Positions 21,772 through 27,111 of a DNA stretch of 34,126 nucleotides are shown piece by piece. Each line of letters opens with the position of its first letter. The stretch's first letter is position 1. Source of the stretch: a virus; the IMG/VR virus record IMGVR_UViG_3300018416_000054, positions 1 to 34,126 of that record. One strand, given 5' to 3'. The notes under the pieces were generated by a model, which did no database searches, was not told the origin of the DNA, and was given only the letters and a program-made list of their open reading frames with translations. A program made the translations under genes and the position numbers.

Positions 21772-22226
21772 AACTATTTACTACTATCATCAGCTTGCTG
21801 ATGTGGACCGTACGGAGTACTTGGACCTTTTTCCATAGAAAAAGCACAACGTCCAAGAGCCCCCTGTGTACCGGTGTGTACCGGCTACCGCCACGCAAGT
21901 GGTACACAGCTAAACCCTTGATTTCAAAGGCTTTTCTGGGATGTGTACCGTGTGTACCACGTGTACCACCAAAACTAGCCTTATTTTTATGGACCATCGT
22001 TCATGAATATATGTTATTTATCATGTTAATTTCTAAATTTACTGGTACATCTGGTACACATGGACCATAGACCATGGATATATGTAATAGAATCAATAAC
22101 TTACGTGTGTACCACTAGCCTCATTTTTACGTGGTACACAAAACCTACGTATATCACCATTTATTCAACATAATCAACAACTTAAGTGTGTACCACTGTG
22201 TACCACCAAACGCACGATATTCACGT

Positions 22227-22928: not shown

Positions 22929-23160
22929 TGCTGGTCAGCCCTACGATGTGTTTTTGGGTAGGCTTTGTAGGTTGTATGTTAAAAATTGGTTAGCCCGCTT
23001 TCACGCTAGCCGTCACAAAACAGGCATACAACTTAAAGATAACCAAAGCTTAGAGCAGTGCGTGATGGGAGCTCCTTTCCATCATGCGTTGCTCGATACA
23101 ATTTTGCTGGTGCAAAATTGGTATTTGTTGATTTGTGTAATGGGAATTGTCTCATTATAT
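22929..23160 (+). ncRNA. Candidate structured RNA/leader with five consecutive hairpins
   Basis: No gene seen. Consecutive inverted repeats: AGCC(C)TAC/GTAGGCT (22937-22944 with 22958-22964), GGTTAGC/GCTAGCC (22988-22994 with 23005-23011), a 16-base RNA-type stem GAGCAGTGCGTGATGG/CCATCATGCGTTGCTC (23053-23068 with 23079-23094, fully paired if three G-U pairs are allowed), a perfect CAATTTTGC/GCAAAATTG (23099-23107 with 23112-23120), and AATGGGA/TCTCATT (23139-23156). The G-U pairs point to function as plus-strand RNA. It could be the 5' leader of the 245-residue gene that starts at 23183, or a separate small RNA. Confidence 0.45.
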
Positions 23161-24034: not shown

Positions 24035-24250
24035 TGCAAGCCAGTCACGCATTGTCGGCGTAGGCGTAGGTAAGCAGCGCACGATTGAAGTAACTTATCC
24101 TATAGATTTATAAGTTAGGCTTTAATCGTGCACTATTTCTTAAGCGACCAACAACGCAATATGGTTCAGGACCTTTCGGTAGCGAGGGTTTGTTGGAGCT
24201 ACCACCCGCAAGCACGCCAGGCCCTGCGATGTGCTGTAAAATGTAATTAA
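24035..24250 (+). ncRNA. Candidate structured leader RNA before the MGLDQY gene
   Basis: About 215 bases without a gene. A long imperfect hairpin pairs GCACGATTGAAGTAACTTAT (24079-24098) with ATAAGTTAGGCTTTAATCGTGC (24110-24131), broken only by one mismatch and a 2-base bulge. Further on are GGTAGC/GCTACC (about 24177-24204) and CCAACAA/TTGTTGG (about 24149-24197), which are mutually exclusive alternatives. Alternative pairings of this type suit a regulatory leader, but no known riboswitch class was recognised. No tRNA cloverleaf could be drawn. Confidence 0.4.
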
Positions 24251-24263
24251 TAAGGAGTAAATT

Positions 24264-24665
24264 ATGGGATTAGATCAATATGGTGGTTGGTTAGAAACAC
24301 CAACTAAACAGCAAGAACTGCATTCAAAACTAATGAATGATGATGATAATTTTGCTGTTGGTGAGTTTGACTGGCGTAAACATGCAAAGCTGCAAGAGTT
24401 TATGGAAATTTTGTGGTACAAAAAATATAAAAACACTGAAACATTCAATTGCCAAAATATGCCACTTGATAGAGAAGATATACTAGCTTTACAAGCTGCT
24501 GTTAAAGGTGAAGAGTTGCCAGAATCAGAAGGTGGTATGTTTTTTGGTCATGAGTTTCAAGATGTATCTGCAAAAGAATACAGAGACCAGGACCTAGAAT
24601 TTTGTGCTAAAGCACTCAAATGGCTAGATGAAGGTAAAACACCTTACTATAGTTGTTGGTGGTAA
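24264..24665 (+). CDS. Conserved 'MGLDQY' phage protein of unknown function, 133 aa
   Basis: This is a recognisable phage family with invariant features: start MGLDQY, FDWRKHAKLQEFME (residues 34-48), FNCQNMPLDREDI (60-73), ELPESEGGMFFG (83-94) and the C-terminus TPYYSCWW. Function is unknown. Related proteins sometimes carry unsupported enzyme labels in databases, and no kinase motif is visible here. The ribosome site is AATAAGGAGTAAATT before ATG. It is flanked on both sides by hairpin-rich gene-free stretches, upstream 343 bases and downstream 731 bases. Confidence 0.85.
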   Translation: MGLDQYGGWLETPTKQQELHSKLMNDDDNFAVGEFDWRKHAKLQEFMEILWYKKYKNTETFNCQNMPLDREDILALQAAVKGEELPESEGGMFFGHEFQDVSAKEYRDQDLEFCAKALKWLDEGKTPYYSCWW

Positions 24666-24671
24666 AAGAAC

Positions 24672-24763
24672 ATAGCTAAGTGACGCAATTCTGCATAAAT
24701 ATATGCAACCAAAAAGAATGCTTAGCTGTATAGACCCACTGTTTTTTATCATTAGTGGTTTTG
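24672..24763 (+). other. Two hairpins directly after the MGLDQY gene
   Basis: The outer stem AGCTAAG/CTTAGCT (24674-24680 with 24721-24727) encloses an inner perfect stem TGCATA-AATA-TATGCA (24692-24707). A second hairpin CCACT/AGTGG (24736-24740 with 24754-24758) is followed by TTTTGTT. The last one could be a weak terminator; the first is a nested structure of unknown role. Confidence 0.5.
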
Positions 24764-24775
24764 TTCAGTCATTGA

Positions 24776-25109
24776 GGGAATAGTTCACCCAAGAAGGTCG
24801 AAACGAACTACAATTTCCCGTGTAGCTAGGTGTTCGACTGCAGAAAAAAGTAAAGATAAAACTGCGAACTCTTTACCCTAGCTACACACCAGTTTCCGAA
24901 ATACACAACAGACACGACCGTTTTCTTGGCGCGCGAATCTGAAATAAAACATCCGAGTTTCAGTAACTTGATACCGTAAATGTTGTGTATTTCACCAGTT
25001 TCCGAGGTATGTATTGGACAACAACCGCGTACCAGCTGCAGTGAAGTGAACACAAGTTACACGGGCGTTCACCGCCAGATACAGTCGCTACATACCTCAC
25101 CAGTTCCCG
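24776..25109 (+). repeat. Array of hairpins separated by conserved 12-base linker CACCAGTTTCCG
   Basis: Linkers: CTACAATTTCCCG (24808-24820, diverged), CACCAGTTTCCG (24887-24898), CACCAGTTTCCG (24993-25004), CACCAGTTCCCG (25098-25109). Between them are long hairpins whose arms differ completely but pair exactly: TAGTTC/GAACTA (24781-24786 with 24805-24810); TGTAGCTAGG/CCTAGCTACA (24821-24830 with 24877-24886); AAATACACAACA/TGTTGTGTATTT (24899-24910 with 24981-24992); AGGTATGTA/TACATACCT (25005-25013 with 25089-25097). Each stem begins or ends directly against a linker. Secondary inner stems exist, for example CTGAAA/TTTCAG (24939-24944 with 24958-24963) and a GTGAAC/GTTCAC pair (about 25045-25072). 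No gene fits here. Non-repeating arms with retained pairing argue for selection on RNA (or cruciform DNA) structure. Confidence 0.7.
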
Positions 25110-25380
25110 TAATGTGCAGTTAATGAAACGACCACTGAAAGCCTGCATTGTAATGATATATCACGCATGGCGAGGAGTTGCATTAACAGCTGAGTTTTTT
25201 AATTAAAACTGGAACAACCTTAGGTCTGATACATAGGTAGTGGTCTGCTGAATTTATACACTTAAGCACAGACCCGAAAAAACCAACCCCTAACTGTGCA
25301 TTACAACCCTGCGACACTATATGTCGCACTTGTATGTTAACATCCCTGCGATGTTATTCTTATGTAATAACTATAGCTAA
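25110..25380 (+). other. Gene-free spacer with further hairpins before the MoxR gene
   Basis: A continuation of the hairpin region. After the last linker, TGCAG/CTGCA (25115-25119 with 25143-25147) and GTTAATG/CATTAAC (about 25119-25125 with 25180-25186) offer weaker or alternative stems. GGTCTG occurs twice (about 25222 and 25242), opposite one CAGACC (about 25269). TGCGAC-ACTATAT-GTCGCA lies at about 25310-25328 and TAACAT-CCCTGCG-ATGTTA at about 25338-25356. A 27-codon frame from ATG 25123 has no ribosome site and is not called. The spacer ends in the ribosome site AAATAGGAGTAAATT of the MoxR gene. Confidence 0.45.
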
Positions 25381-25396
25381 AAAATAGGAGTAAATT

Positions 25397-26431
25397 ATGG
25401 CTAATGAAATGAATATCCCCCCGATTAGACCCAAAGACCTGATCCCTGAGATTATAGATAATACCCGTGCTGGTATTTCTACATTTATCTGGGGCCCCCC
25501 AGGTGTAGGTAAATCACAAATTGTTAAAGCTGTTGCACAACAACTTAACAGATCACTTATGGACTTTCGTAGTAACTTGTTCGACCCTGTCGATGTGCGT
25601 GGTATACCATTCCACGATGCAGTCGAGGGTACACACATGACCTACTGGGCTCCACCAAGTATATTCCCTTATGATCACAGAGACTCACCTGAAGGTATCT
25701 TCTTTCTTGACGAACTGACTACTGCACCACAAGCTACACAAAACGCTTTCTTGCAATTAGTTCTTGATGGCAAAGTAGGTGACTATACATTGCCGGAAGG
25801 CTGGTGTTGTATCGGTGCAGGCAACAGATTGTCTGATATGGCAGCTGTATATGACATGCCAGCACCTATGAAAAACAGGTTCTTGCAATATCATCTAGAC
25901 GTTAACTTAGATGACTGGTGTGACTGGGCCGCACAAAACAATATAACTGACCTTATTACATCATTTATACGGTTCAGACCTAACTTGTTATTCAATTTCG
26001 ACAGTGCTGACACAGCATTTCCTACACCAAGAAGTTGGGAAATACTTAACAAAAAGCTGCAATTCAATGACAACACAGAAAGCGATCGTTTCTTTCATGG
26101 TGTGTCATCACTAATCGGTCAAGGTCCTGCAGGCGAGTTTGTAACATTCAAACTTAACAGAGATAAGATGCCTGACATTGATCAGTTGATTAGACAACCA
26201 AATGCAGCAAAAGTTCCTAAAGATGAACCTGCGATCATGTACGCTATAGCAGGTGCTGTAGCAGCCAGATCAACAGATGAAAACTTTGACAAGGTTTGCC
26301 AATATGCAAATCGTATGGAACCTGAGTTTCAAGTAGTGCTTATGCGTGATGCACTTTCTCGTAACCCTAATCTAGCTTCGACATCCGCATATCAGTCGTG
26401 GTTAGCTAAAAATGCAACGGAGATAATCTAA
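25397..26431 (+). CDS. MoxR-type AAA+ ATPase, 344 aa
   Basis: The AAA+ core has Walker A WGPPGVGKS (32-40), Walker B IFFLDELT (101-108, Asp105/Glu106), a sensor-1 region reading CCIGAGNRLSD, and an arginine-finger-like PMKNRF shortly after. This layout is that of MoxR/RavA-like ATPases, which act as chaperones and usually pair with a vWA-domain partner. That partner is encoded three genes downstream, and the intervening genes overlap or abut. The start is supported by AAATAGGAGTAAATT. Length and domain content fit the family, with no extra domain. The substrate is unknown; in this phage it may remodel or load metal into a host or virion protein. Confidence 0.88.
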   Translation: MANEMNIPPIRPKDLIPEIIDNTRAGISTFIWGPPGVGKSQIVKAVAQQLNRSLMDFRSNLFDPVDVRGIPFHDAVEGTHMTYWAPPSIFPYDHRDSPEGIFFLDELTTAPQATQNAFLQLVLDGKVGDYTLPEGWCCIGAGNRLSDMAAVYDMPAPMKNRFLQYHLDVNLDDWCDWAAQNNITDLITSFIRFRPNLLFNFDSADTAFPTPRSWEILNKKLQFNDNTESDRFFHGVSSLIGQGPAGEFVTFKLNRDKMPDIDQLIRQPNAAKVPKDEPAIMYAIAGAVAARSTDENFDKVCQYANRMEPEFQVVLMRDALSRNPNLASTSAYQSWLAKNATEII

Positions 26432-27111
26432 TGGCAACAGTAAGAATGAGTGACAAACTCAAATATGCAATACTAGATGAGGCTGAGCATCAGTTTCAAA
26501 ATGTTAACAAAGAAAAGGAAATACCTTTGGATGTTGGTGATGCAGTTTATGCAGAATATGCACAACCAGTTGTTGATTCAGTACAAAGCTTAATGATCAA
26601 ATATCCACATGTAAAAAACTTTATGAGTTTTGAAAACATGTCAGAGATATCAGTAGGTTTTGTAATACCTAGTGACGTTAGTGACCAAGATCAAACTTAT
26701 AGTTCAACATCTCAACTAAAAATGTCAGCTGAACGTCCATTTCCAAGAGGTGGTGGAAATAGTTACAACTATAACCATATTTCTTTTCACATTCCTCATG
26801 ACTCTGAAAATGCTGAAAAAATCAGAGAAGTTAAAAATCACAATGAAGACGTCAGCACAAGAAGAGCAGATTACAGAGCTAAAGTTAAAAACACTATTGA
26901 AAACTTTACAACTGTAAATCAAGCTCTCAAAGCATGGCCTGCATTGGAGAAACTTATCGCTGGTACTAGCGAAGGTGCTTGGGTTTTACAACGTGTGAAC
27001 GAAAAGGTTCAACGTAAAAAGAAACAAGCTGAGCAACGTGCTGAGATCGAACTTAATGAAACCGATCTTAATTCAGTTATTCTAACCAATGCGTTAATTG
27101 GTGATGACTAA
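26431..27111 (+). CDS. Nmad5-like protein (putative nucleotide-modification-associated), 226 aa
   Basis: Residues 1-40 (RMSDKLKYAILDEAEHQF ... DVGDAVYAEYAQP) and 145-190 (VKNTIENFTTVNQALKAWPA, LEKLIAG) fit my memory of the Nmad5 family: an opening helix pair, a DAVYxxxY segment, a central beta part, then 'TVxxxLxxWP'. The central part (residues 60-130) is beta-rich with HISFHIPHDS. The C-terminus is charged. No catalytic motif can be pointed out. The gene lies between MoxR and the vWA-metallopeptidase protein, sharing one base with the MoxR stop, so it may be a client or adaptor of that pair. The family call needs a profile search. Confidence 0.55.
   Translation: MATVRMSDKLKYAILDEAEHQFQNVNKEKEIPLDVGDAVYAEYAQPVVDSVQSLMIKYPHVKNFMSFENMSEISVGFVIPSDVSDQDQTYSSTSQLKMSAERPFPRGGGNSYNYNHISFHIPHDSENAEKIREVKNHNEDVSTRRADYRAKVKNTIENFTTVNQALKAWPALEKLIAGTSEGAWVLQRVNEKVQRKKKQAEQRAEIELNETDLNSVILTNALIGDD

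Follow-up and report, generated by a model that had tools for sequence, protein, structure and literature searches.

A tandem array of structured cassettes, most belonging to two phage RNA families that appear to be undescribed, upstream of a MoxR-like gene in an uncultured virus

A structured noncoding gap between two genes

The window, by which we mean the whole stretch of DNA analyzed, is a 34,126-base record of an uncultured virus, presumably a marine virus of bacteria. What can be said of its host is likewise presumptive, and scans of genome contigs gave nothing useful on the host. On the plus strand, which carries the array and the features described between 24222 and 26431, a noncoding gap of ∼730 nucleotides (nt) separates the gene for a 133-amino-acid (aa) protein (MGLDQYGG...; positions 24264 to 24665) from the gene for a MoxR-like AAA ATPase (25397 to 26431). 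The 133-aa protein had no match in Pfam, PHROG, or PADLOC; in relatives, its homologs carry a pseudoknot cassette within the 5′ leader. A protein encoded between MoxR and a VWA protein (26431 to 27111) matches Nmad5, a nucleotide-modification domain (PF18757; E = 8e-8). At 21898 to 22206, a repeated inverted motif (GTGGTACACA/TGTGTACCAC), also present in L056, L003, and L145, looks like the iterons of a replication origin. A promoter-like motif, CCCTGCGATG, lies upstream of the 133-aa gene (24222 to 24231) and again between the array and MoxR (25344 to 25353). Exact copies of the form CCCTNCGATG occur at 22939, 24222, and 25344, upstream of open reading frames (ORFs); the motif often follows terminators and recurs upstream of ORFs in relatives. 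The copy at 24222 is likely the transcription start for the unit containing the array, and since the motif recurs at 25344, the array probably belongs to this first transcript or to read-through.

The first structured element 3′ of the 133-aa gene is a stem, ATAGCTAAG/CTTAGCTGT, with an inner hairpin (24672 to 24729), which recurs in L031. An array of five cassettes follows, at least four of which are assigned to two families of phage RNA that appear not to have been described. The first unit (24736 to 24811) consists of a hairpin (24736 to 24758) and an H-type pseudoknot (24763 to 24811; S1 GGG:CCC, S2 TAGTTC:GAACTA); it is identified by covariation and by a match to covariance model R1 (36.3 bits, E = 1.2e-6, with the window included in the model). 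Junction AATTTCCC (24812 to 24819) leads to U2 (24820 to 24887), whose 11-bp closing stem P1 encloses a pseudoknot (S1 GTTCG:CGAAC, S2 GTAAAGA:TCTTTAC; P = 0.0025); the same architecture in other sequence is found in the related record G001 (L056:3504-3569). Junction ACCAGTTTCC (24888 to 24897) comprises the 3′ end of U2 and the 5′ end of U3 (24898 to 24993), which has a 13-bp covarying P1, a core of the form GACACGACC...TTGATACCGT, matches to models R2 and R3, and a pseudoknot (S1 CTTGG:CCGAG, S2 CTGAAA:TTTCAG; P = 0.02). The same junction sequence (24994 to 25003) precedes U4 (25004 to 25098), which belongs to the U3 family in diverged form (GGACAACAACC...CAGATACAGT) and has a 10-bp P1. U4 is identical in G001 and scores 69 bits (E = 3e-17) against R2, a model that contains U4 itself; a fixed-geometry test for a clean nested pseudoknot did not confirm one in this unit. 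Beyond junction ACCAGTTCCC (25099 to 25108) lies U5 (25109 to 25304), whose motif (GAAACGACC...CTGATAC) marks it as a long relative of this family; its inner hairpins covary, and its 14-bp P1, GTAATGTGCAGTTA/TAACTGTGCATTAC, includes two G-U pairs. The first 95 nt of U5 are 93.7% identical to L067, for which the corresponding values are 72% for MoxR DNA and 68% for the 133-aa gene; a search with R3 did not match U5. A weakly terminator-like 7-bp hairpin, TGCGACACTATATGTCGCA (25310 to 25328), follows the array. An earlier note on this DNA had ended the array near 25109 and had thereby overlooked U5.

That note had described three near-identical linkers, a diverged fourth, and perfectly pairing arms between them, all of which are present: CACCAGTTTCCG at 24887 and 24993, CACCAGTTCCCG at 25098, and a diverged copy that terminates the first unit. 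Directly adjoining the linkers are perfect Watson-Crick stems of 11 bp (GTGTAGCTAGG/CCTAGCTACAC, 24820 to 24887), 13 bp (GAAATACACAACA/TGTTGTGTATTTC, 24898 to 24993), and 10 bp (GAGGTATGTA/TACATACCTC, 25004 to 25098), each absorbing one linker base per side (G...C), so that the unpaired linker is ACCAGTTTCC. Stems of at least 10 bp numbered three, whereas 200 versions of the gap produced by dinucleotide shuffling had a mean of 0.07 and a maximum of 2; sequences of equal composition therefore give fewer stems than observed. The 737-nt RNA of the region folds with a z score of −2.8. The first unit is a pseudoknot rather than a hairpin. The stems do differ from one another, as the note held, but U3, U4, and U5 share a common core, so the hairpins are not all nonhomologous. 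The units are 68 to 196 nt long and are not near-identical repeats; only the linker, 12 to 13 nt, is repeated.

Two cassette families and their turnover in relatives

Family 1, to which the first array unit belongs, has an H-type pseudoknot 3′ of a hairpin; pattern scans together with R1 located members in over 20 virus records besides the window. In alignments A5 and A7 (12 and 16 distinct sequences), 95.6 to 96.3% of cells were paired, both partners had changed in 12 and 19 cells, respectively, and sliding the pairing partner abolished the signal. The observed covariation was reached by 0 of 500 shuffles; here and below, such counts come from small alignments of related members and are not probabilities. 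Stem 2 appears as GGTCC:GGACC, AGTTC:GAACT, GGTTC:GAACC, and GGCTC:GAGCC. Outside arrays, most copies end 17 to 34 nt ahead of the start codon of a gene, which in many instances encodes a 133-aa homolog. Tandem pairs of two copies occur in L262, L264, and L252, and the same pseudoknot stands ahead of different genes in L234 and L254. Covarying hairpins were also seen directly 3′ of the pseudoknot at L022:2188-2240 (GAGCAAAGG/CCTTTGCTC), L197:1865-1915 (GAGTAGAGAGG/CCTCTTTACTC), and L199:1073-1120 (GAGTAAGGGGG/CCTCCTTACTC).

In family 2, the closing stem P1 varies almost freely in sequence, the flanks are conserved (ACGACC/GATAC), and the ends are short and constant (GTTYCC...ACC[A]); a nested pseudoknot with two directly adjoining 3′ arms is usually present. 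Within P1, U3 and U4 carry the core GACACGACC...GATAC, which U5 shares at the level of the motif; U2, which lacks this core, may be a shorter version. P1 was 100% paired in 10 sequences, all seven counted pairs were doubly changed, and its 25 doubly changed cells were equaled in 0 of 500 shuffles. Model R2 was built from six members, and R3 is its widened version; each necessarily recovers the sequences on which it was built. Beyond the group from which the family had first been recognized, R2 found the new members L080, L081, L159, L162, and L165 (E = 2e-10 to 3e-14), which share much sequence with L151, a member of that model; its weak matches L019, L020, and L021 were clear members on reading. 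A further member, in G026, was found with R3 (E = 1.1e-13). The nested pseudoknot fits one geometry in seven of eight modules, with a combined P of ∼5e-9 that is rough because the geometry was fixed after some modules had been seen. U3, G003, L067, L151, and L020 have this pseudoknot in the same place, as do two shorter modules, U2 and G001 U4b, both of which lack the conserved core. A generic stem-plus-pseudoknot scan returned 52 matches versus 36 in one control, a background too high for finding modules from structure only, and single-module pseudoknots therefore need covariation support. With pairing retained in homologous contigs, covariation in both families, and members of both recovered by covariance-model searches, the view that structure has been kept under sequence change is upheld and the structures themselves are well supported.

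Nearly identical family 2 cassettes lie directly after three different stop codons in L278, L273, and L275, with the ends GTTYC...ACC (the first base is A in L278); the L151 group lacks these ends. Since solitary cassettes keep them, the linker of the array consists of the ACC(A) of one cassette and the GTTYCC of the next. What had been taken for an element of its own is thus the joined ends of adjacent cassettes. Ahead of the family 2 cassette in L162 is a structured leader segment (L162:2235-2332) containing a tRNA T-arm-like hairpin, AGGGTTTGATTCCCT, in which ARAGORN found no tRNA.

Four other records share the gene block, with MoxR DNA 72 to 94% identical where compared. The same gap holds at least six units in G001, two in G003, two in the L067 genome, and a different hairpin array in G002, so that cassette number and kind vary among close relatives. 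In G001, the U3 core is 97% identical and its stem is different yet perfectly paired; in L067, the stem is identical to that of U3 and the core is replaced. This variation indicates that cassettes are exchanged both as wholes and as nested pieces. Solitary cassettes of both families in relatives are intergenic, lie on the sense strand, and usually stand 17 to 34 nt before a start codon. The array is best explained if cassettes accumulated end to end in the lineage of the window.

Other features were observed in the related records. The G002 array is a 1.4-kb noncoding stretch in the same place (L002:2700-3950), with hairpins GGAGTGC..GCACTCC, a linker-like CGACTAAATTTCA, and two elements beginning CAGTCCCTARTCCGTA. 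The leader of the G003 133-aa gene holds a module with a 9-bp stem, CTAGCAATG/CATTGCTAG (L003:3150-3228). ARAGORN called tRNAs with anticodon CTA at L003:1931-2007 and L024:812-885 (named tRNA-Pyl), which are possible amber suppressor tRNAs. KPP25, a cultured relative identified through its capsid and primase, has no obvious array in its annotation, and neither family was found in the cultured phages tested.

Comparison with described elements

Rfam gave no match to the window at the gathering score and none to 24640 to 25400 at E values up to 5; at the other loci, L262 had none and the rest had only weak, chance-level matches. A literature search of partial coverage found no such element. Structured phage leader RNA is known as a kind, and the two families and their stacking into arrays appear to be new. 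A tRNA-like array, an idea taken from the G...C-ACCA ends, was rejected because ARAGORN found no tRNA in the window and CCA is not conserved. The region is noncoding and, as had been noted, not a CRISPR array, since the linker is 12 nt, against repeats of at least 20 nt in CRISPR arrays, and the units are structured and homologous, unlike the unrelated, nonpalindromic spacers of such arrays. Matches to the bare linker pattern in L005 to L008 proved unrelated, and L063/L065 and several other pattern-scan matches were chance occurrences in or near coding sequence.

The T4 gene 32 translational operator, in the 5′ leader, shares with the cassettes an H-type pseudoknot ahead of a ribosome-binding site in a phage, with a sequence that drifts between phages (PMC535899); it serves one gene and has a known binder, gp32, whereas the cassettes stand at many genes, form two families, carry extra hairpins, and build arrays. 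As for position, the cassettes of relatives usually lie 17 to 34 nt before start codons, whereas the window array ends ∼90 nt before MoxR. ToxI, CptI, and TenpI arrays and phage pseudo-ToxI are likewise tandem pseudoknot RNAs with unpaired linkers, and phage TE escapes ToxIN through an expanded pseudo-ToxI (PMC5086642). ToxI, however, consists of near-identical 34- to 36-nt repeats beside a toxin gene, and no toxin-like gene was recognized among the proteins tested near our array (no ToxN match in Pfam or PADLOC for nearby proteins, which included part of the small ORFs). The array shares pseudoknot units with type III antitoxins; assignment to that class was rejected because the units differ and no toxin was found among the nearby proteins tested. 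The manA, wcaG, and PhotoRC-II RNAs are structured RNAs of marine phages, several in putative 5′ untranslated regions (PMC2864571), but the array differs from them in its structure, its tandem layout, and its lack of an Rfam match. Like our cassettes, REP and ERIC elements are short and palindromic, lie at gene junctions, and move from site to site (PMC3116915, PMC2229807); they are bacterial DNA repeats, unlike these phage-borne, oriented elements with conserved RNA cores and pseudoknots. No examined record held more than two matches to any one model, and the same cassette occurs at different junctions in different phages. GOLLD and ROOL are also long structured noncoding RNAs of phages (PMC12286853), each with one fixed fold, in contrast to independent cassettes that come and go and have no Rfam match.

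Possible functions of the cassettes

The sense orientation, the position, and the G-U exchanges argue that the cassettes work as RNA and in cis, on the transcripts that contain them, and the position together with the T4 gene 32 precedent (PMC535899) favors leader or intercistronic control. We therefore prefer, with moderate confidence, a reading in which each cassette would fold on the mRNA, would probably be bound by a phage or host protein, and would then control translation initiation or shield or define the mRNA end at gene junctions. Transcription, the binding partner, and the effect on translation or mRNA stability are the parts of this reading that we infer. The nearest of the earlier suggestions was a leader of the MoxR operon: cassettes in relatives do lie just upstream of ribosome-binding sites of genes of this block, but in the window a promoter-like motif separates the array from MoxR. 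Several observations count against this reading: the cassettes of the window, ∼90 nt from MoxR, are not beside its ribosome-binding site; U4 lacks a clean nested pseudoknot and U5 is unmatched by R3; and constant turnover of cassettes would also be expected of decoys or mobile elements.

An alternative that we regard as unlikely, if worth serious attention, is that a host RNase cuts the linkers to release separate small RNAs whose pseudoknots would work in trans, for instance as decoys against RNA-targeting defense or mimics of type III antitoxins. Tandem pseudoknots with conserved unpaired linkers resemble ToxI precursors, for which the pseudo-ToxI of TE is a precedent (PMC5086642), and occur also in L262, L264, and L252; cassette number and kind change rapidly, and ACCA after a 10- to 13-bp stem would resemble the end of an RNase P substrate. 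Yet ACCA gives way to ACTA or AACC in other units, the units are not near identical, no toxin-like gene was recognized among the nearby proteins tested, and solitary cassettes upstream of ribosome-binding sites would be needless for a trans-acting RNA. It is improbable, in our judgment, that the two families are interchangeable gene-junction cassettes of which family 2 is catalytic (self-cleaving) or ligand binding, stacked into a modular arms-race or processing array with no described counterpart. Slightly less probable still are selfish or neutral mobile intercistronic cassettes of the REP/ERIC kind, whose structure would mainly keep them harmless. Near-identical family 2 elements with constant GTTYC...ACC ends directly after stop codons at three junctions, and one family 1 pseudoknot ahead of different genes in L234 and L254, would fit such mobility, but steady sense orientation and start-codon spacing, conserved cores and pseudoknots, and conservation above that of the flanking genes argue for a sequence-level function.

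Small ribozymes usually combine a variable P1, conserved internal-loop bases, and a pseudoknot. Family 2 has this build, with conserved internal-loop bases on both strands, and its constant unpaired 5′ flank beside G1 could be a cleavage site. That family 2 cuts mRNAs where genes meet, either as a self-cleaving ribozyme or as a nuclease-guided signal for processing, is nevertheless quite improbable in our view, as no Rfam ribozyme matched even at loose thresholds and family 1 has the same location without the family 2 core. Least probable is a DNA-level element, that is, an origin, a recombination site, or a packaging site. The arms are palindromic and cassettes swap between genomes, but G-U pairs exchange with Watson-Crick pairs and orientation follows transcription, both of which speak for RNA, and the iteron-like repeats lie elsewhere (21898 to 22206); the replication region proposed in the earlier note is disfavored on the same grounds.

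Phage genomes are densely packed with genes, and a stretch of 600 nt of noncoding RNA that is conserved and covaries must therefore earn its place. Both families are absent from Rfam, have been found in numerous uncultured marine phages, and are defined well enough for working covariance models. They offer a direct route to testing how phages control translation and the fate of mRNA at gene junctions, and the arrays show that such RNA elements are gained, lost, and exchanged as cassettes.
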